From: Isoetes taiwanensis
Taxonomy: Eukaryota > Streptophyta > Lycopodiopsida > Isoetales > Isoetaceae
Assembly (NCBI GenBank): GCA_021234155.1
Contig: JAJEKV010000053.1
Coordinates: 1,747,307 to 1,811,306, forward strand
DNA: 64,000 nt
Direction of reading: 5' to 3'
This document shows, piece by piece, positions 2,142 through 64,000 of this stretch (the first letter of the stretch is position 1; every line of letters starts with the position of its first letter). The position numbers and the translations under genes are program-made. Below the pieces are notes generated by a model. The model did no database searches. It saw only the letters and a list, made by a program, of their open reading frames with translations, and was not told where the DNA came from.

Positions 2142-4302
2142 TCAGCACGCCACGTTTTTAGAGATAATGGGTATGACATCCTTAGGGTGATCTGTTCTTG
2201 GGCCTGCTAAGGAACGATAAGCAATAAGCTGGACAGGCAACTCATTTGATAAAGGGGAGTATTCTATGTTCCAATAAGGCCCCATTGCAAGAAAATCACT
2301 TGGATTTCTTGCTTCATATGGGGGCCCATATGTATCTCAACGATTGTAACGATCTAACTGTGGCTGCAATTCCAGCCTCAGTAATAGGACAATCCCTGAG
2401 TTCAAGCTTCCTAAGCTTCACACAACCAGACAAAGCTCTGAACCCCTCATTATTCTCTCCAACACAGCCCAAAAGAAGCCACCTAATCTTTCCACCATAT
2501 CTGCCAATGTGGGCTAAACCTTCATTTGTAAGTCCACCATGGCGTATATAAATAGCCAAACGAACCATATTTGAACATCCCTCTAGCAAATTCTTCACGC
2601 CATCATCAAATGAAGGTGTGGTTCTCATGTCACTCTCTAATAAAGCTATTCTGAAGTCCACCAAGTTTGGACATGACTCTCCGAATGCAGATAATGCTGA
2701 ACTGGTGATATCTGATGCATAAATTGCAACGGACTGTAAACATCTGCAGTTTTGAGCCAGATAAAGTAGCCCCCGATGTGATACAAAACCATGCTGGTCC
2801 TCTAAATTTTCAATCCGAAGACTCCTAAGCTTTTTACAATGGTTGCCAAGCACTTCAAGTCCTGCATCTCCAATAATGTTTCGCACCTATATAGAAACAT
2901 GAAATGAGAAACAGAATTAACTGAGGTACCTCATGCGTTGAAATAACTGCTATATGAAGCATATCATTAGACCCTGTAGATTTTTCACGAGATTCTACCA
3001 TATAATATGAGAAATAAAGAGTACAGATGCAGATGATGCCCAAGACTGAGTGGTTGGTTCACCTAGGAGAGGAATTGGATTGGCTACTTCACCCAGCTTG
3101 CAATACATTTTGTGTGGTTCAGTAACTGATGATTTAACACAAGGGCAGATAAGCAACATCAACAAGAAAGAAATAAACGAACAAATGAACAAGAACTTGC
3201 CTTTAAAATCTGAAGATTGGCACAGGACTTGATAAGCTCATTATGAACCTCTGCAGTCAACAAAGTGGATGTTGACATAAGATTCAGCTGGATAAGGTTC
3301 AATGCAATAGAAGAATCTATTGGCCATGGGATGTCACCAGAAAAAGAGACAAGACTTCTAGGCAACTCAAGCTGATTATTGATCTGGTCCTCTGTCGGAT
3401 AACACACTGCAAGCTCTTTGAGACATGTTGCTGATGTTATAACCTTCCTCATACTTCCTGCGTCAACTTCACTGAGCTTTAGAAAATCAATGACTTGCAA
3501 TTTCTTAAAAGCATTGCCAAATCGTCCATGTCAATTTGGAGCCCTGTTAATGAGAATTTTAGCACTTCCAGCTGCGAATTATGCAAGGCGAGCTCATGAA
3601 ACCATTCTCCATCCAGGTCTTCAATCAAACTTTCTTCCAGGTATAGCTCCTTTAACCCTCTGCACCATAAAAAGCTCTCAAAATTACTATGCATAGTATG
3701 TCACAGCAATGGCATAATAAAGAAGAAATGGCGAAAGCATACCTACAGCAATGGGCTACAGCATGGACACCCTTGTTTGTAAATCCAGTACACTTATCCA
3801 ATCTAAATACCTGCAATGAGCTAGAAAATGTGCGGGCTATGGATGTCAGGTCTTCATCAATAACTTCGAGGCGGCGAAGATGAATGGATTGAAGGGCAGG
3901 ATAAGCCTTAAATTGTATAGCCGCCTTGGTAATCTCCAGAATCCATGGCCGAGCAAACCCACCCCAATCTTTGGGAAGCAAAGCAAAATCATAGGGCCTA
4001 GGTTTTCCCTTAATCTTAATACTCTTAAGATTCTTGAAACGTCTTACAAGTACTGAAGGCTTGACAGCATAAGGAGAAACTACTGTAACATGTTTGCGTG
4101 TAATGCTATCAATTTTATGCCACTGCTTATTTACCTGAGAAATGGATTTTCGGTCTATTGGATCATCCAAATGATGGAAAACACATTCCAGGACATCATC
4201 TGAGAGAATCCCATCAAATCTCCTTGTAGACATTCGGCGACCCTTTGAAGCAGGCTTATACGGACCACATATACCTCTAATTGGGATAAACAGAGAGTCC
4301 AA
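2142..4302 (-). CDS. COI1: COI1-like F-box/LRR jasmonate receptor, two frameshifts
   Basis: This is a homologue of CORONATINE INSENSITIVE 1, the F-box subunit of the SCF ligase that binds jasmonoyl-isoleucine and targets JAZ repressors for degradation. Exons read 4302-3743, 3659-3201 and 2886-2142, giving about 587 residues against roughly 590 in the family. An F-box at about residues 30-70 is followed by leucine-rich repeats. Family blocks seen include KGKPR, PKDWGG, LRIE, IYASD, GGL and KLELR, which carry the positions known in Arabidopsis to contact the hormone (Arg85, Arg348, Tyr386, Tyr444, Arg496 equivalents). Intron 1 is GT-AG; intron 2 has a GC donor (GCAAGT). Two single-base shifts break the frame: one base missing at the A run 3483-3486 and one extra in the G/C run 2320-2327. 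Without correction the protein stops after TrpAlaProIle. Start 4302 is uncertain; 4233 is an alternative just before the F-box. Confidence 0.88.
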
Positions 4303-32647: not shown

Positions 32648-32758
32648 AAGTTTTCCTGAAAGTCATTGTCTTTCTTGTTGCATTTTAAGAAATGGTAAGA
32701 AGGGTTGAGGAGGTGGGCGATAGTCGGCCGCCTACCAACCAAGGGCCACTACCGTAAG

Positions 32759-34108
32759 ATGTGGGGCGGGGGAATGCGAGGGCAAGGGAATGCAGGGTTT
32801 TATCCACCAGAACTTGGAATGCTTTTAGCACCACTTGCACCATTGCCTCCTGTATTTGATGGTTCTTGGAATCCTACTGAGTTCCTGCACACCTTTGAAG
32901 ACTACTATGAGTTACATGGCAGGAGGAGAGGAGATAAAATTTCCATGTTCGGAAAATGCATGAAAGGGAAAGCCAAGCTGTGGTATGAGCATTTCACTAT
33001 GCATGAAGAACTAACTTGGGATTCTTTGTGTAACTCTTTTATTACAAGGTTCGGTGTAGCACTCAGCACAGGAACCTTGGTCCACGAGCTGCATACCTTC
33101 CAACTTCAAGCTGGAGAGGAGGTAATTGATTACATAGAGAGATTTTCACATTATCTCAAGGTATGCCAGGAAAGACATATAGAGAATGCTCTTCCAACAG
33201 TGATTCACTTTTTTATATATGGTCTGAGGATGAAACCAAGAATAAGCTATAAACTCACTAAGATGTTTGAAGCTGGTGAATTCACTACCATCTCGCAGGT
33301 ATTTAACAAAGCAAAATCATTGAGTCTTTCAACTGCAGAATTACCAAAGCCTGAATATAGAACTACTGGATATTGGGTAGAAGGCATCAATCAGAAGTAT
33401 CCTAACAATTCTGCTTCAGTTTATGCAGTGAGAATAGAAAGGGAGACTGCGGATTTGAAGGAGCAATTGAGGCTTACTCAAGAAGAACTGAAAAAGCAGC
33501 AGGAAGAAATGAAGATACAGTTTGCTAAGCAACAGGAACAGTTTAGTGAGCAAATGAAGACTATGATGGAAGAAATGCAAAGGAATATGAGGGAAATAAC
33601 TAAGGGCCCAGCTGCCAGTGTTTGCAACCATTGCAAGAGAACGGGTCACACAGAAGAGACATGCTACAGGAGGCCTTGTCCACGATGCGATAAAATTGGA
33701 CACTATGGTAAAGACTGCCCTGTGTGTTCATACTGTAATCTAACAGGGCATGATGTTAAATTCTGCCAAGTAATGGCATATGAGAAAGCTAAGGGAGCTA
33801 AGAAAGTGGCTGAGGTTAACACATGCCTTATTGAAACGTGTGATGACAATTTAACATCTGTGATGGCTGTGACTAGGTTACAGGAGGGGAGGTCAAAAAG
33901 AGTTTTAAAGAGCGGACTAACAAACAAGACCAGCCCCGATGGACTAAATGTGCCGGCAGCTCCCATCCCCAAAATCAGTAGAGTGGGCAATGACAAAAAC
34001 CTTGACGGCCAAGTTGAACACACTGCTAAAAACACCAAGGTAAGCATAGGCCTGTTATCATTGTTCAAAGAGTCTCCTTCTTATAAAAAATGTGTTTTCT
34101 TAGGTTGA
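32759..34108 (+). CDS. Gypsy gag polyprotein with three zinc knuckles
   Basis: An open frame of about 449 codons. The retrotransposon capsid domain spans roughly residues 15-190 (FDGSWNPTEFLHTFEDYY, AKLWYEHF, TWDSL, FITRFG). A glutamine- and glutamate-rich coiled coil follows (about 225-285, KEQLRLTQEELKKQQEEMK). Then come three CX2CX4HX4C zinc knuckles in a row (CNHCKRTGHTEETC, CPRCDKIGHYGKDC, CSYCNLTGHDVKFC), which bind the genomic RNA. Three knuckles are more than the usual one or two of plant gypsy Gag. The start at 32759 is the first ATG of the frame. The frame stops just before the protease, so pol would need a frame change or is simply broken. Confidence 0.88.
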   Translation: MWGGGMRGQGNAGFYPPELGMLLAPLAPLPPVFDGSWNPTEFLHTFEDYYELHGRRRGDKISMFGKCMKGKAKLWYEHFTMHEELTWDSLCNSFITRFGVALSTGTLVHELHTFQLQAGEEVIDYIERFSHYLKVCQERHIENALPTVIHFFIYGLRMKPRISYKLTKMFEAGEFTTISQVFNKAKSLSLSTAELPKPEYRTTGYWVEGINQKYPNNSASVYAVRIERETADLKEQLRLTQEELKKQQEEMKIQFAKQQEQFSEQMKTMMEEMQRNMREITKGPAASVCNHCKRTGHTEETCYRRPCPRCDKIGHYGKDCPVCSYCNLTGHDVKFCQVMAYEKAKGAKKVAEVNTCLIETCDDNLTSVMAVTRLQEGRSKRVLKSGLTNKTSPDGLNVPAAPIPKISRVGNDKNLDGQVEHTAKNTKVSIGLLSLFKESPSYKKCVFLG

Positions 34109-57222: not shown

Positions 57223-59793
57223 TAAAGATGTCCAGAGATACCATGTCTTCTCTCCGTCCTCTCTTAATGTGGTCGACAAAGAACATCAACTCGGGATCTC
57301 CCGCATTACATATATGGTTTGTTCCAACCTCAATATGCGAAAGGTTTACCACAATGGAGATGACCTTATAGATGCATTAATAGGCTGTCGTTCTTTCTCC
57401 ACCCCTTACAACGGCAGCCACTGTCCAAAAATCACCAGATGCTATGAAGTGGTTACCTCCAAAAGGTCTATTGTTCTTTAGTGAATTGTTGCAATGGGTT
57501 ATTGACGCTCTCTATTACTACTTTATTAGCCATTGAAAACCCGTCCTATATTATGACCTTTGCCTCTACCAATAGTTGTGTTGCTCCTGAAACTGGCTCT
57601 AATAGCAGCAACCTCGTGTTGTTTCCAACCATGAAGATATGGAATAACAAGTGCATTTTCTTGTCCATTGTATAAAGCTGACATAAGAGGGTTGTTATGC
57701 CACATGGGAGTATCATGTTTTGTTTGCTTCGTTCTGGCAGGCATATGCTTATTTTTTTCTTGCACCATTATACCATTGACGAAATATATTGATTCAAACT
57801 TTGTTAAGGATCGTAGCTTAACTATTTACTCAAGTGGAAACCTAGAATCAAATATTTCAAACAACTATGATATTTGAAGTTTGAATGTGAATAGTATTTA
57901 CTGAACCACTATTCATATTCGTATGGGCGTCGATTCAAACACTGCTCACTATAGGATTGATAATTTGATGGTCCTGCACTTCGGAATCACCAATTAGGCC
58001 GGAGATCTCCTTGGATTATCCCATATTCAATTCATTGTATAGTTTCATCTATGTACATCGTTTCTATGTCATCAATTTCCACCGTTTCTCCAATGGAGCC
58101 GGAGATGGTTAACTATTATTCGCCACATCCCTCTTTCCAACCCTATACTTAACCAATCGATAATTATCTACATGTAAAACCTTATTTACGTGGTTCCATA
58201 TTTACATAGTTCATCAATCTTGAACTAGGTTTGAAGTCTCATAAGCGATCAACCTTGAATAACTTGAGATGATCTACTATCAAATTTTTCTCGTGACACC
58301 TTATGCCAAGACACATTGTGCCTAACCCTTGTCCAATTATACCATATGCTTAGACCTTGTGCAAGTTAGGATAAGTGTTAGTGCCATTAATTTTTTCTTC
58401 TAGTGCCTAGGCCCACTTGCTACGTTAGTGACATTTCTAGTGCCTAGACCATCTAGCAAGTATACAACTATTTGTGTATTGTTGCTCCATAGAGTATTAC
58501 CCTTAAGTGGTATTCAACATTTGGCATATTATGCCCAATCAAGTTAGCTACATGTTTTTCAAATAAGTTGGGTCTGCTACATGCTATTTCTTCAAGGCAG
58601 ATGCATGTTTTTACATTTCTCAACTCATGTCGGCCTACTAAGTCGACTCAAATATCTTTCCCAATAGCTTGGGTTTGCTTCATGCAAGTTATTCAAGGCA
58701 CATGCCTGTTTGCCTTATGTAGGCACAAGCACAAACACAAGGCACAAGTTTCTAATAAAAACGTGTTAAAATATGTACATGTACATAACATAAAAAAAAA
58801 GGGACATGATTGGGTTGCTTGAGCCCCAACTACTCATGTACTAGAACAAAACCTAAACTTTGAAAAATTAGGGTTTCGGCATGGAACCCTAACAACCTTT
58901 TAGGGTACATCTATCGTCTTGCTTCTACCAAAAGACACAAGGAGCTTACTCCTTTCCACTTCTCTTACTATTTTACATAGCCGTTTCCTGCACCTCGTCT
59001 AGTTCTATGGTGCCTACAAAGTTTGTTGAATAGTATCGCAACTTAGAGCACATCAAAGAGGCACCAATCGACTGGGTATTTCAAGTCTTTCAACATACCT
59101 TTGATCTTTATGAAACAACATCAAGGACACCATATTACCAAGATATCCTTGGTCAATACAATCAATCAAATCCAAGGCCGTGATGTGAGACTCTAAGGGC
59201 AAACGGAGCATGGATCTTTTTAACGCTATCACAACAGATCGAGTCGACACCAAAGAAGACAATCTGGAAAAGGGTTGAAAGAATGTCGAGTACATGACAT
59301 GTAGTCCAAAGGCATAAAAATATTTATCAAAGCACAAGTAGTCTTTGCAACCTTCTTCCATTATCTGGCAATAAACAAGATAGAGGAAAGGGACCGTAAA
59401 AAGGGAGTGCATCATGTCAAGAATATGAGCTTATAACATTTTGCCTTAGTGATAGAATTCCTGAGGATGTTTCAAGTTATCATAATGTAAAAATTGCTGA
59501 AACTATATAAATTAACAAAAAAAAAAAAACTATATAAATTGTATAAGAATGTGAATATAGCTTCACACTCATATTCATATTATTAATGCCTAGGAAGTTA
59601 TGGTTGTGATAAATTCCAAGTGTCGATGTGAATATTCTTCTTTTATATTGTGCAGGTCCGTTTCACCTTATGTAATCTTGAGGATAGCATTATCCGGGGG
59701 ATGTGGCGTTCTCCTAAAATATATGATATAAATACGTATATTTTATGGCCACATCACCATACAACTCTACATAAGTAGACTTGTATACACCTA
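57223..59793. other. No gene established
   Basis: Short frames only, for example 57155-57481 (plus), 57526-57768 (minus, ending in a Gly-Arg-Gly-Lys stretch) and 59053-59415 (minus). No family is recognised. The end nearest 59793 is probably internal sequence of a retrotransposon whose 3' LTR follows. Confidence 0.3.
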
Positions 59794-60350
59794 ATGTGGG
59801 GGAGATGACTAAGTTATCTACATAACTTAGCCAACCTAAGGTAAGAAGCTATTTCCACATGGCCTCATCTTATAGGCTTAACCGCCACATAGATGCACCT
59901 ATGGGAGCCAAGTGGCATTCATGTGAACCCTAACATATAAAAAGGCTAAACTCTAAACCCTAGCCACTTTTTGACTCTACCAACCTCGACCCACCCGGTT
60001 AGCCCATAGCTTCGATCCGGGGGATCGTCTTGACGACCCTAGGTTGCGGTAGCCATCCTGGGCGCTAAGCACGAAAGGAGGATCATCGACTCGAGTCACC
60101 TGCTAGAGATGGAAGGCAGCTCATTAGGAGCAGATATTTCAAGTAGATTCCAGTTGAGTTGCACCTTGTATCCTAGTAGAGCTATCCTAGAACCTATAGT
60201 TATGAACATGAACCCTAATCAATGAACCCTAACTGTAAATTAGATGTATGTGATTAGGATTAGTTGTTATTCTCCTTTATTATCAAGATTATGTTAATAT
60301 GATATTGGTTGATCTCATGTTTGCACCTCTTGTGTATTGGAAAGGGGGGT
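59794..60350 (+). repeat. Probable 3' LTR (copia-like) after a polypurine tract
   Basis: ATGTGGGGGAGA at 59794-59805 is a typical Ty1/copia polypurine tract and is followed directly by TG (59806). A TATAAAAA promoter box lies at 59936-59943, 130 bp into the LTR. The right end and a TSD could not be placed, and no 5' partner is in the window. Confidence 0.5.
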
Positions 60351-61603
60351 AGCGACCTAGTAGCCACTAGTAGATGATGCTCCTAGTTTAGACCCATTAG
60401 TTCCCATTATTATGCGACTTGTGCATAGAGCCCACCCAGGCTCACGGAGGCTATGGAGTGGTGAAAGCACCACACAAGGGGTCAGTGGCAAAGTGGAGGG
60501 AGGACCTGGCGGCGGCTACTAGGGTCCTATAGCGGCCTAGACTCATAGTCGGTCACTTCATGCGGGCAGTATGGGTCCCACACTTCCTTCTGGGTTAATG
60601 GTGTCGCCCTAACTCTCAAGAGTTGCAAGTGTCGGCTTGCTCTTGTTTTGGAAAGTTCGGTCCAGTGCGGACGTGTGTCGCCACCATCCTCTAGCCGCTC
60701 ATGGAGCCATTGCACTCGGGAAGGGAAATGCAACCCTTTCTACCTCATCGGGCCGGGAGATGCAACACAGAGTAGTCTCGTTGAGTGATACCATGGGATT
60801 ACGTCTCGGCGGATTTACAGTCATCTACAAGCCTAATTTAGCTTAGCCATGCGCAAAGCATGCAATGTGGAGGGGCGGATGGAGTGGTCAACCCTAGCCA
60901 TTGTCTATTGCCACCCCAAGTCATTGCCATAACTTCGATGCGATTTCTATCCGGAGGCCCCCATCCGCCGGGTCACAACTCCTCCTTGAGTCCGAGCCAC
61001 GGGTAGGAGCCTCTATTTGATGTATTCGATGTATTGTTGTATTCGGTGACATGGATGGATGGATTATCATTACCCTAAGGGGTAGTTTATTGTTGTTGTG
61101 TTATTGCTAGTGCTTATGTTTATATGTTTTGCTTCGGTGACATAGGGACCCCTAGAGGGCGGACGGAATGACACCTCTGTGTCCTCTACTTTCGATAGTC
61201 CGCCCACCTTAGATGCGAGTTAGGCGAGAGGGCCCATCACGACCGGATAGCCGTTGGATGGGGAAGGTTCTTCGTTGTATATTGCAGTCTGCCGGTATAT
61301 AAGCGCAAGGGCGTCCGCCATAGTGAATCCATCAATAGTCGCAAGGAAGATATGAAATAATCGGCAAAAAAGAAACAATGGCGAAGGTCGCCTATAGGTT
61401 ATATCTAAAGCAAACCTTGCAGGATCAATCTCACAGTAGAAGAGTATCTTGACCTGTCTATCATCCCCAAGAATCGCCTCTCCACATTTCACTATGGATC
61501 CGGAGGCAAGGTGAGGTGGGGTAGCCTGTCCTCTGCTACCGACCTAGCCGCTGCCATTTTGAAGCATTCCTAAAAATGCATGCCGCATGCGCATGCAAAA
61601 AGC
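60351..61603. other. GC-richer repeat-derived stretch, unassigned
   Basis: Higher GC than the surroundings and without a recognisable domain; probably LTR or other repeat sequence. No gene is supported. Confidence 0.3.
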
Positions 61604-61748
61604 TATAACAGACTTATGGAAGACCGCTCGAGTGGATCTTGTTGTCGCGTTCCCGAGACACTGGCATAATTGGATAGAAGCGGCTACTCATAAACGTCTA
61701 GACGGTTTTGCCTAGTTGGTTAAGGGCATGTCGGTTAGGAACGTTACA
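61604..61748 (+). repeat. TRIM LTR, forward, 145 bp
   Basis: Starts TATAACAGAC (TG changed to TA) and ends AACGTTACA. It is followed after TT by the PBS at 61751. Confidence 0.85.
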
Positions 61749-61750
61749 TT

Positions 61751-61762
61751 TGGTATCAGAGC
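61751..61762 (+). other. Primer-binding site for initiator tRNA-Met
   Basis: TGGTATCAGAGC is the standard plant LTR-element PBS complementary to the 3' end of initiator tRNA-Met. An inverted copy lies at 63043-63054. Confidence 0.85.
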
Positions 61763-61850
61763 AGGGCTCGAGTTCGAGTCTCCATAGGTGCAAGTATGAC
61801 CCAGAATCACCGTATTTTGCCCCGGTTGGTTAAGGGGCATGCTCGGTTGC

Positions 61851-61926
61851 TGATACGAGAAGATTAGCAAACGATCTGAGAGAAGATTAGCATGGCCCTG
61901 CGCCTCAAGGATGACACGCATAAATA
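61851..61926 (+). pseudogene. U6 snRNA pieces, duplicated
   Basis: TGATACGAGAAGATTAGC is followed by a second, longer piece ACGATCTGAGAGAAGATTAG running on to GATGACACGCATAAAT. Both match the middle of plant U6 (about nt 30-82). The first has CG where U6 has CAG in the ACAGAGA box. Confidence 0.85.
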
Positions 61927-62140
61927 ATATAGCGTTCCTAACCGACATGCCCTTGACCAACTGGGGAAAACCGTCTAGACGTTTATGAGTAGTCGCTTCT
62001 ACCAATTTATGCCGGACACCAAGATTCACTCGAGCGGTCTTCCATGGGTCCGTTACAATTTCTCCCACTAGAACTATGCTCGTCCTCGAGCATCAAAGAC
62101 CAAGTCATGACCTACCGTCCACCGGTATTCTGGGGGAGAT

Positions 62141-62285
62141 TGTAATAGACCCATGAGAGACCGCTCGAGTAGATCTTGGTATCGTGTTCCCGAGACACTG
62201 GCATAAATGAGTAGAAGCGACTACTCATAAATGTCTAGACGGTTTTGCCCAGTTGGTTAAGGGCATGTCGGTTAGGAACGTTACA
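62141..62285 (+). repeat. TRIM LTR, forward, 145 bp
   Basis: Preceded by the tract TGGGGGAGAT and ending GTTACA, directly abutting U6 sequence. Confidence 0.9.
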
Positions 62286-62329
62286 AACGATACAAAGAAG
62301 ATTAGCATGGCCCCTGCACAAGGATGACG
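62286..62329 (+). pseudogene. U6 snRNA piece between opposed LTRs
   Basis: AACGATACAAAGAAGATTAG continuing to CCCCTGCACAAGGATGACG matches U6 nt 30 to about 73 with two changes (ACAAAGA for ACAGAGA, CACAAGG for CGCAAGG). It starts at the first base after the LTR. Confidence 0.92.
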
Positions 62330-62458
62330 TCGGACACCAAGATCCACTCGAGCGGTCTTCCATGGGTCCGTTACAATCTCTGCCACTGAAACTATGCTCG
62401 TCCTCGAGCATCAGAGACCAAGTCATGACCTACCGTCCACCGGTATTCTGGGGGAGAT

Positions 62459-62603
62459 TGTAATGGACCCATGGGAGACCGCTCGAGTAGATCTTGGTGT
62501 CGCGTTCCCGAGACACTAACATAAATGGGTAGAAGCAACTACTCATAAATGTCTAGACGGTTTTGCCCAGTTAGTTAAGGGCATGTCGGTTAGGAACGTT
62601 ACA
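62459..62603 (+). repeat. TRIM LTR, forward, 145 bp
   Basis: Preceded by GGGGGAGAT, starts TGTAATGGACCC, ends GTTACA. Confidence 0.9.
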
Positions 62604-62657
62604 AATGATACAAAGAAGATTAGCATGGCCCTGGCGAAGGATCCTGCGTATAAATTA
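62604..62657 (+). pseudogene. U6 snRNA piece between opposed LTRs
   Basis: AATGATACAAAGAAGATTAG continuing to GTATAAATTA matches U6 nt 30-82, with changes in the loop. The next base begins a reverse LTR (TGTAACG). Confidence 0.92.
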
Positions 62658-62774
62658 TGTAACGTTCTAACCGGCATGCCCTTAACTAACCTGAAAAACT
62701 GTTTAGACGTTTATGAGTAGTCCTTTACCAATTTATGCCGGACACCAAGATCCATGTCGGTTAGGAACGTTACA

Positions 62775-62829
62775 AATGATACAAAGAAGATTAGCATGGC
62801 CCCTGCGCAAGGATCACACGTATAAATTA
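62775..62829 (+). pseudogene. U6 snRNA piece between opposed LTRs
   Basis: The best preserved copy: AATGATACAAAGAAGATTAG, then CATGGCCCCTGCGCAAGGAT and CACACGTATAAATTA. It lies exactly between a forward LTR tail (ending 62774) and a reverse LTR (starting 62830). Confidence 0.93.
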
Positions 62830-63201
62830 TGTAACGTTCCTAACCGACATGCCCTTAACCAACTGGGCAAAACTGTCTAGACGTTTATGAGTAGTCACTT
62901 CTACCAATTTATGCCGGACACCAAGATCCACTTCAGCAGTCTTTCATGGGTCCGTTACAATCTCTCCCACTAGAACTATGCTCGTCCTCGAGCCGGTATC
63001 CTGAGTCATACTTGCCCCCATGGAGACTCGAACTCGATCCCTGCTCTGATACCAAATGTAACGTTCCTAACCGACATGCCCCTAACCAACTGGGCAAAAC
63101 CGTCTAGACGTTTATGAGTAGTCACTTCTACCCATTTATATCAGTGTCTCGGGAACATGACACCAAGATCCATTTGAGCGGTCTTCCACGGGTCCGTTAC
63201 A
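62830..63201 (-). mobile_element. Complete TRIM copy, minus strand, 372 bp
   Basis: Read on the minus strand: 5' LTR 63201-63057 (145 bp), PBS 63054-63043, a 97-bp internal region with no coding capacity, purine tract GTGGGAGAGAT, and 3' LTR 62959-62830 (130 bp, net 15 bp shorter). This is among the smallest LTR-retrotransposon layouts and depends wholly on other elements for enzymes. Confidence 0.88.
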
Positions 63202-63390
63202 AAAGCGAACCTTAGAAACCAGGTCTATATGAATGAAATAAGCATGTTTGTCATTTTGGCCAAAAACAAACACCTAAATAATTCTTGAACCTTATCACTA
63301 ATTATATTCACATCACAAAGCATATATTCTAGTGAGAGATTTGTTTGGAAGGGGAAAACCCGAGCATTTGTCTTGTATGGCACGATTGGA

Positions 63391-63960
63391 ATACTACTTT
63401 CAACAACTTTCCTTCCTCCTTGTTTTACAATAAATTGTGCTAGAAAAACCATTAACTTAAGGAAAATCTGAAAGGTCACAGTTGAAATACTACCCTCAAC
63501 AACTTTCCTTCCTCCTGGTTTTACAATGGATTGTGCTAAAAAAAGCATTAACCTACAGGAACATCTTAAATGTCCATGTTGAAATACTACCCTCAACAAC
63601 TTTCCTCCTCCTGGTTTTACAAAGGATTGTGGTAAAAAAAGCATTAACCTACGAGAACATCTTAACTGTCAAGGTTGAAATACTTCCCCCAACAACTTTC
63701 CTCCTCCTGGTTTTACAAAGGATTGTGGTAAAAAAAGCATTAACCTACGAGAACATCTTAACTGTCAAGGTTGAAATACTTCCCCCAACAACTTTCCTTT
63801 CTCCCTAGTTTACAACGGATTGTGCTAAAAAAACCATTAACGCTAACCTAAGGGAACATCTTAAATGTCATGGTTGAAATACTAGCCTTACAACTTTCCT
63901 TCCTCCGACTTTACAATAGATTGTGCTAACAAGACCACTAACCTATAAAACTTTCATCCT
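63391..63960. repeat. 96-bp tandem repeat, about six units
   Basis: Units start at 63391, 63487, 63584, 63680, 63776 and 63879 (96-97 bp apart, 103 for the fifth). Each contains CAACAACTTTCC, TTTTACAA, GATTGTG(C/G)TAAAAAAA and AACATCTTAA blocks. Units three and four are nearly identical. 96 bp is a multiple of three, so frames stay open on both strands by chance. The last unit is partial. Confidence 0.88.
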
Positions 63961-64000
63961 ATAAACTTATGGCACGTGTCCTGGAGATTGCCAGCCAAGC

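Follow-up and report, generated by a model that had tools for sequence, protein, structure and literature searches.

Inverted pairs of miniature LTR retrotransposons (TRIMs) within a 5-bp target-site duplication (CTTCA) have already been published, and arrayed maize TRIMs have been PCR amplified and sequenced (PMC4717578). Cassandra, Helenus, and Ajax are described as TRIMs that carry 5S or tRNA sequence in their LTRs (PMC10886601), and Cassandra arrays have been published together with a search motif (PMC7215508). LTR-mediated retroposition by template switching, credited to Tan 2016 in PMC5408686, concerns mRNA retrocopies in the account given there. Giles 2004 is cited as having proposed that some snRNA copies are tied to LTR elements (PMC4476161, PMC4997597), and U6, tRNAs, and pre-tRNAs are reported to be present in retroviral particles (PMC4997597). 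In the U6-LINE chimaeras of mammals, U6 is described as captured by template switching, with a target duplication around the product (PMC4476161).

The locus studied here lies in the window, as we call the whole 64,000-nucleotide stretch of DNA that was analyzed. Like the published inverted TRIMs, it combines inverted TRIM copies with a 5-bp target duplication, but no small RNA between LTRs is reported for those pairs, and snRNA is absent from the main text of that article (PMC4717578). It shares with Cassandra, Helenus, and Ajax a TRIM-type element with Pol III small RNA sequence. In those families, as outlined in PMC10886601, the RNA gene sits in each LTR and is family-wide, whereas here it lies between opposed LTRs at single loci. 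As in LTR-mediated retroposition, a cellular RNA is joined to LTR-element cDNA, which in the summary of PMC5408686 occurs via short similarities; there the products are mRNA retrocopies, whereas the present palindrome holds a small Pol III RNA flanked by two U5 ends. An RNA copy with LTR sequence inside one target duplication, as expected of that process, is found with both U6 (AAAGC) and a tRNA-Glu-like piece (TCCAC). The snRNA pseudogenes attributed to retroviruses are likewise LTR-element-associated copies, and U6 and pre-tRNAs occur in the particles (PMC4997597), but they are called ancient in a paper on mammals whose account does not describe a U5-RNA-U5' layout (PMC4476161). The U6-LINE chimaeras resemble the present case in template-switch capture and target duplication and differ in their non-LTR machinery and in the joining of U6 to a 5'-truncated LINE; internal initiation is stated never to have been observed in U6/L1 chimaeras (PMC4476161), whereas U6 is truncated on both sides here. 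Among the literature matches listed (titles and abstract openings, with few subscription papers covered), none describes opposed LTRs with U6 or tRNA enclosed. Each component is known singly (TRIM pairs in inverted arrangement, template switching by LTR elements, and retroviral U6 packaging), and we did not find their combination in the literature searched.

The unit at 61604-63201 of the window (contig C1060) is a single insertion made from a TRIM. It is assembled from U6 pieces and the LTRs, primer-binding sites, and polypurine tracts of one TRIM family (Table 1). The LTRs on either side of the U6 pieces point toward one another with their inner (U5) ends. The unit terminates in a U3 end on both sides, with the left LTR forward and the right LTR reverse, and AAAGC lies directly outside both.

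Table 1. Parts of the insertion and its target-site duplication, in window coordinates.
Positions	Strand	Feature	Remark
61599-61603	.	AAAGC, left target-site duplication	identical to 63202-63206
61604-61748	+	outer forward LTR, starts TATAAC (changed TGTAAC), U3 end outward	
61749-61813	+	primer-binding site TTTGGTATCAGAGC and 5' part of TRIM internal region	
61814-61850	+	forward LTR tail remnant ahead of first U6	by eye; C1084 version shorter, clearer
61851-61925	+	U6: short duplicate (~nt 31-48), then ~nt 28-80 with errors	
61928-62057	-	reverse LTR with 16-nt deletion	
62058-62140	.	reverse internal region and reverse polypurine tract, then forward polypurine tract GGGGGAGAT	
62141-62285	+	forward LTR, end GTTACA	
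62286-62328	+	U6 piece from nt 28, 3' side cut short	
62331-62375	-	truncated reverse LTR with 16-nt deletion	
62376-62458	.	reverse internal region and forward polypurine tract, duplicate of 62058-62140	
62459-62603	+	forward LTR, end GTTACA	
62604-62655	+	diverged U6 piece	
62658-62752	-	truncated reverse LTR with 16-nt deletion	
62753-62774	+	forward LTR tail, 22 nt	
62775-62827	+	U6 piece nt 28-80, 49/53 identical to genomic U6	
62830-62959	-	reverse LTR with 16-nt deletion, 3' LTR of reverse TRIM	
62960-63056	-	short TRIM internal region reversed; polypurine tract AGTGGGAGAGAT, primer-binding site 63043-63054	
63057-63201	-	outer reverse LTR, U3 end outward, ends CCGTTACA	
63202-63206	.	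AAAGC, right target-site duplication	identical to 61599-61603

The genome assembly comprises 1,110 contigs (1.66 Gb). The LTR tail GTCGGTTAGGAACGTTACA, allowing two mismatches, occurs 1,492 + 1,569 times genome-wide (~3,000), compared with 13 + 10 for the reversed control; within the window, the tail GTTAGGAACGTTACA at the same stringency occurs 7 times, whereas 100 shuffles gave 0.09 on average. In ordinary copies, the LTRs are direct, measure ~145 to 158 bp, and run from TGTAAC to GTTACA, and by inspection, a primer site (TGGTATCAGAGC) follows the LTR and a purine tract (AGTGGGAGAGAT) precedes the other LTR. These features led us to reject a terminal-inverted-repeat DNA transposon (MITE). 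The copies are short (L009, 431 bp from LTR start to LTR end; L033, 454 bp; L006, 455 bp), which leaves little room for coding capacity. An exact 5-bp repeat flanks 5 of the 11 direct-orientation copies looked at: in the first set, five of seven (L006, L007, L011, L012, and L033, not L009 or L034), and in the second, none of four (L010, a solo LTR; L031, with a damaged end; L032, 4 bp; and L035). Ordinary copies at six loci gave no Rfam match to U6, tRNA, or 5S at E values up to 1, and ARAGORN found no tRNA in them either, so the family is neither Cassandra nor Helenus; the Cassandra search motif is also absent from all four copies tested. The LTRs of L006, L007, L009, and L033 are direct, whereas the outer LTRs of the window unit are inverted. 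The unit derives from a TRIM and is not a standard TRIM.

BLAST places U6 at four sites in the window (61879-61925, 62286-62328, 62604-62642, and 62775-62827), and Rfam reports U6 twice above its gathering cut-off of 44 bits (53.4 and 50.5 bits). The homologous contig C1084 contains two U6 pieces (BLAST; Rfam, 67.4 and 51.1 bits). Three U6 genes fetched from the genome share the same 101-nt U6 sequence, to which the first piece of C1084 (U6a) is identical at 53 of 53 positions, nt 28-80. The second piece (U6b) and the window piece at 62775 each match at 49/53. Ahead of U6a lie an LTR-tail fragment and a short additional stretch of U6 (~nt 31-48), and the first U6 of the window is full of small insertions. 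The 3' joint of U6a keeps the AA found between primer site and LTR, in place of which U6b has TTA. Even the longest pieces cover nt 28-80 only, with the 5' stem-loop and 3' end of a functional U6 missing, and by inspection, no upstream U6 promoter accompanies the captured pieces. For these reasons, and judging from sequence, we propose no function for the U6 piece.

The preliminary description placed U6 between opposed LTR ends at all four sites. U6 itself is confirmed at each by BLAST, and at three of the four it does begin at the base right after GTTACA (62285/6, 62603/4, and 62774/5). A full pair of opposed ends, however, is present at only two (~62604 and 62775). The right side of 62286-62328 joins the interior of a reverse LTR, and the left side of ~61870-61925 is a mere LTR-tail remnant. 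The expectation that a transcript would fold into a stem of LTR arms with U6 in the loop is correct as a prediction, yet trivial for any inverted repeat.

The four U6 places are also not independent. We aligned 13 LTR copies from the window contig and C1084 and found the same 16 nt missing from all six reverse LTRs that follow U6 (W_2, W_4, W_6, and W_7 in the window; B and D in C1084). These nucleotides are present in the five forward LTRs that cover the site and in the two outer reverse LTRs. A 300-nt block of the window unit is, moreover, repeated at 318-bp spacing with 95% identity. The common deletion and the local repeat together indicate that the U6 pieces represent a single capture multiplied in place, and a single capture followed by local duplication would fit all four places. 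Genome-wide, the 5' junction (up to three mismatches) occurs at five places, three in the window, one in C1084, and one in a pseudogene on C1027 that has no LTR by BLAST. The 3' junction occurs at four places, two each in the window and C1084. Amplification of a composite, as suggested earlier, thus holds locally as duplication in place, but the junction search revealed no dispersed family, and we discarded dispersed amplification. Apart from the C1027 pseudogene, the junctions matched by these patterns are confined to the window and its homologous contig.

Both flanks of the unit are shared with C1084 at 92.6 to 99.8% identity, and we therefore rejected C1084 as an independent insertion. Judged by this similarity, it is either the other haplotype or a segmental duplicate. 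Downstream, the two contigs agree at 99.8% over 900 bp and 98.3% over 4.1 kb. Identity is 95% over window positions 62753-64000 and 92.6% across 59261-62328 (92.6 to 95.0% across 59261-64000), and it is 97.7% over the 5.5 kb next upstream of 59261. Beyond this, still farther upstream, the match is broken: C1084 is ~28 kb longer between window positions ~37.7 and 53.8 kb; collinearity then resumes over 18 to 38 kb (95.4 to 99.5%, in a stretch that was partly sampled) with two more breaks. The right LTR end is damaged in C1084, where other bases precede AAAGC. The C1084 LTRs in the U6 locus differ pairwise by 9 to 17%, and the locus has inverted joints on the polypurine side too, so several templates or switches, or else much later change or rearrangement, are needed. 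The window copy is noisier than C1084 and carries signs of assembly noise, and its copy number of four may partly reflect assembly.

The match on C1027 (position 7607543; L028 ~1044-1097) is a degenerate U6 pseudogene whose first base corresponds to the U6 base at which the captured pieces begin. It is preceded by GGAACGGTACA, and no inverted repeat surrounds it. A retroviral switch does not explain this same-base break. Its source could be a U6 variant with a small duplication, or the site could be prone to breakage from another cause.

The cleanest example of a small RNA between inverted LTRs is a 391-bp palindrome on C1044 (9969234-9969624; L029 435-825), in which an LTR, a tRNA-Glu(UUC)-like piece, and an inverted LTR follow one another. 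Two 158-bp LTR arms face each other across 75 nt, with TCCAC on both sides. The 75-nt piece scores 32.3 bits against the Rfam tRNA model (cut-off, 29); ARAGORN calls no tRNA in it and calls tRNA-Glu(ttc) in a local duplicate of the palindrome. The piece is 95% identical to genomic tRNA-Glu genes over 66 nt and includes 3 nt of the 5' flank of the source gene, as a precursor might. Its 3' joint, like that of U6a, keeps the AA lying between primer site and LTR. The arms are identical at 155 of 158 positions. The best other LTRs of the 158-bp subfamily match the arms at 149 to 155, and since these are equally close, we dropped likeness of the arms as proof of origin from one molecule. One base is common to both arms and absent from each of the eight other 158-bp LTRs compared. 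The duplicate (C1044:9952053; L044) lies ~17 kb away and is noisier, with damaged ends and no exact 5-bp repeat; it shares flanks over ~1.3 kb with the palindrome, which excludes it as an independent insertion. The predicted hairpin of the palindrome reaches -334.6 kcal/mol versus a mean of -114.0 for 100 shuffles, and long hairpins of this kind could feed small-RNA pathways. Matches to the mir-2831, mir-3851, and MIR918 families fall below their own cut-offs, and we read them as matches to any long hairpin. Arrays of tRNA-Glu genes occur in C244, C1045, C715, and C1037 (e.g., L045 and L057-L059), where some intact-looking copies lie next to damaged ones; they are a possible source of the captured tRNA.

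A third inverted locus, on C1078 (20565097-20566321; L051, L030, and L052), is a 1,225-bp TRIM chain with CAAGT on both sides. Its two U5-to-U5 joints have spacers of ~17 to 18 nt with no recognized RNA gene, and one spacer contains TGCTCTGA, which we read as lying in the complement of the primer site. U5-to-U5 joints also occur on C1103 (1929300-1930900; L060), where the ~50-nt spacer has no Rfam match at E values up to 0.1, and on C1062 (2234600-2236000; L061), with a spacer of ~2 nt and no recognized RNA. Exact 5-bp repeats enclose all three inverted loci whose outer ends are both readable, namely, the window unit, C1044, and C1078; random 5-mer pairs in the window match with a frequency of 0.00135. 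This count leaves out C1084 and the C1044 duplicate, for their damaged ends, as well as C1062 and C1103, where the set of outer LTRs is incomplete.

Exact patterns for opposed LTR tails yielded no place genome-wide at spacers of 0 to 30 nt (reversed control, 3 and 3), the window and C1084 at 30 to 60 nt, and C1044 and C1029 at 61 to 91 nt. The C1029 match was taken as chance, as no LTR is visible there by eye. Pairing GGTTAGGAAC with its own complement gave five places at gaps of 60 to 90 (the window, C1084, C1044, C1062, and C1103) and none genome-wide at gaps of 91 to 121. Requiring exact ends, these patterns overlook diverged copies (e.g., C1078), so the counts are no measure of how frequent the class is. 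Only two of the loci found contain a captured RNA gene, one with U6 and one with the tRNA-Glu-like piece.

We consider it probable that the unit began as an aberrant TRIM cDNA that switched templates onto a small Pol III RNA and was inserted once. Any such account has to accommodate what is observed, namely, the architecture, the junctions, the target duplication, the second locus with a tRNA-Glu-like piece, and the common 16-nt deletion. The TRIM is non-autonomous, so the particle, reverse transcriptase, and integrase would have come from an autonomous LTR element. A DNA end at the boundary between U5 and the primer site would switch onto a packaged small Pol III RNA (U6 nt 28-80) and copy it, and a second switch would then lead from the copied RNA to a different LTR strand, at its U5 end. 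The resulting molecule would read U3-R-U5, small RNA, U5'-R'-U3', with U3 at both termini, and integrase would insert it by these two ends, producing the 5-bp duplication. The U3 and U5 termini of the LTR have the inverted sequence TGTAACG/CGTTACA in common, so integrase could use two U3 ends. We infer that packaging occurred, in what order the switches followed, and which strand was involved in each; by analogy with retroviruses, particles of plant LTR elements may contain small RNAs.

The U5-to-U5 joint coincides with the position that the primer RNA occupies while reverse transcription is under way. Ten of 11 bases of the LTR end GGAACGTTACA agree with U6 nt 26-36; this likeness, reached by 27 of 20,000 U6 shuffles, would favor switching there. 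It is a hint and not proof because the site was chosen after sight, and the actual U6 junction is offset by ~9 nt from the 11-nt similarity. Taken together, the U5-U5 layout, this likeness, the AA joints, and TGCTCTGA on C1078 favor a template switch onto small RNAs in the particle at the point where U5 meets the primer site. Reverse-transcriptional capture with subsequent integration, as first suggested in the preliminary description, is well supported by the 5-bp duplication around the whole unit and by the tRNA in the same position at C1044. The occurrence of U6 and a tRNA in that position suggests that small cellular RNAs can enter genomes by such capture, and a captured-RNA palindrome explains the structure better than an amplified family of composites does.

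Some LTR elements target Pol III genes, and two separate TRIMs or solo LTRs could have inserted in opposite orientations into a U6 gene or pseudogene, and likewise into a tRNA gene, so that its central part came to lie between the two. The 9 to 17% differences among the U6-locus LTRs of C1084 agree with such an origin, as do the C1044 arms, whose likeness to one another is roughly on a par with their likeness to other subfamily members. Two insertions are nevertheless unlikely, given that the 5-bp repeat lies outside the LTR pair and not around each LTR, that inspection reveals no remainder of U6 or tRNA beyond the LTRs, and that the C1044 arms share the base absent from 8/8 other LTRs of the same length. 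A chromosomal inverted TRIM pair could also have taken up U6 or tRNA through fork stalling, foldback repair, or gene conversion and then expanded; inverted repeats are susceptible to these processes. The clear local duplication in 300-nt blocks and the inverted joints on the polypurine side suit this DNA-level route. It does not predict small Pol III RNAs over random DNA at the U5 ends of two loci, and the only genomic source flank present is 3 bases at the tRNA; we therefore judge it rather improbable.

It is very unlikely that misassembly of an inverted-repeat region produced part of the array. The window contig does have four U6 copies against two in C1084, its first U6 is riddled with small insertions, and its identity to C1084 drops across 59261-64000 relative to either side. 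However, the joints recur in two contigs, and C1044 has the same design with an exact target duplication, so an artefact could account for the copy number, not for the joints.

Capture of a small RNA by an aberrant TRIM cDNA has broader implications. It is possible, though we hold this more tentatively than not, that palindromes with small Pol III RNAs between two U5 ends are a recurrent side product of LTR-element replication, and that integrase accepts two U3 ends and so generates a "U3-out" class of insertions in plant genomes. If so, such insertions would give rise to snRNA and tRNA pseudogenes and would also mark the first stage by which TRIMs gain Pol III promoters. The design points to a possible origin of TRIM families that carry Pol III promoters, and it suggests that a molecule ending in U3 on both sides is acceptable to integrase. 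It also offers genomic evidence, in what the TRIM, the U6, and an F-box gene suggest is a plant, for the retroviral proposal that LTR elements reverse-transcribe and insert packaged snRNAs. Because U6 and a tRNA occupy equivalent positions, each within an exact 5-bp duplication, the proposal is testable.

The window contains several other features. On the minus strand, 2314-4302 encodes F-box and Transp_inhibit domains, and matches to leucine-rich repeats in the next open reading frame stay below cut-off; this is probably an F-box gene of the auxin/jasmonate-receptor type. A Gag-like open reading frame of a Ty3-type LTR retrotransposon (Pfam Retrotrans_gag) lies at 32705-34108. Shortly after the TRIM array, a tandem repeat with a period of ~96 bp occupies 63356-63960.
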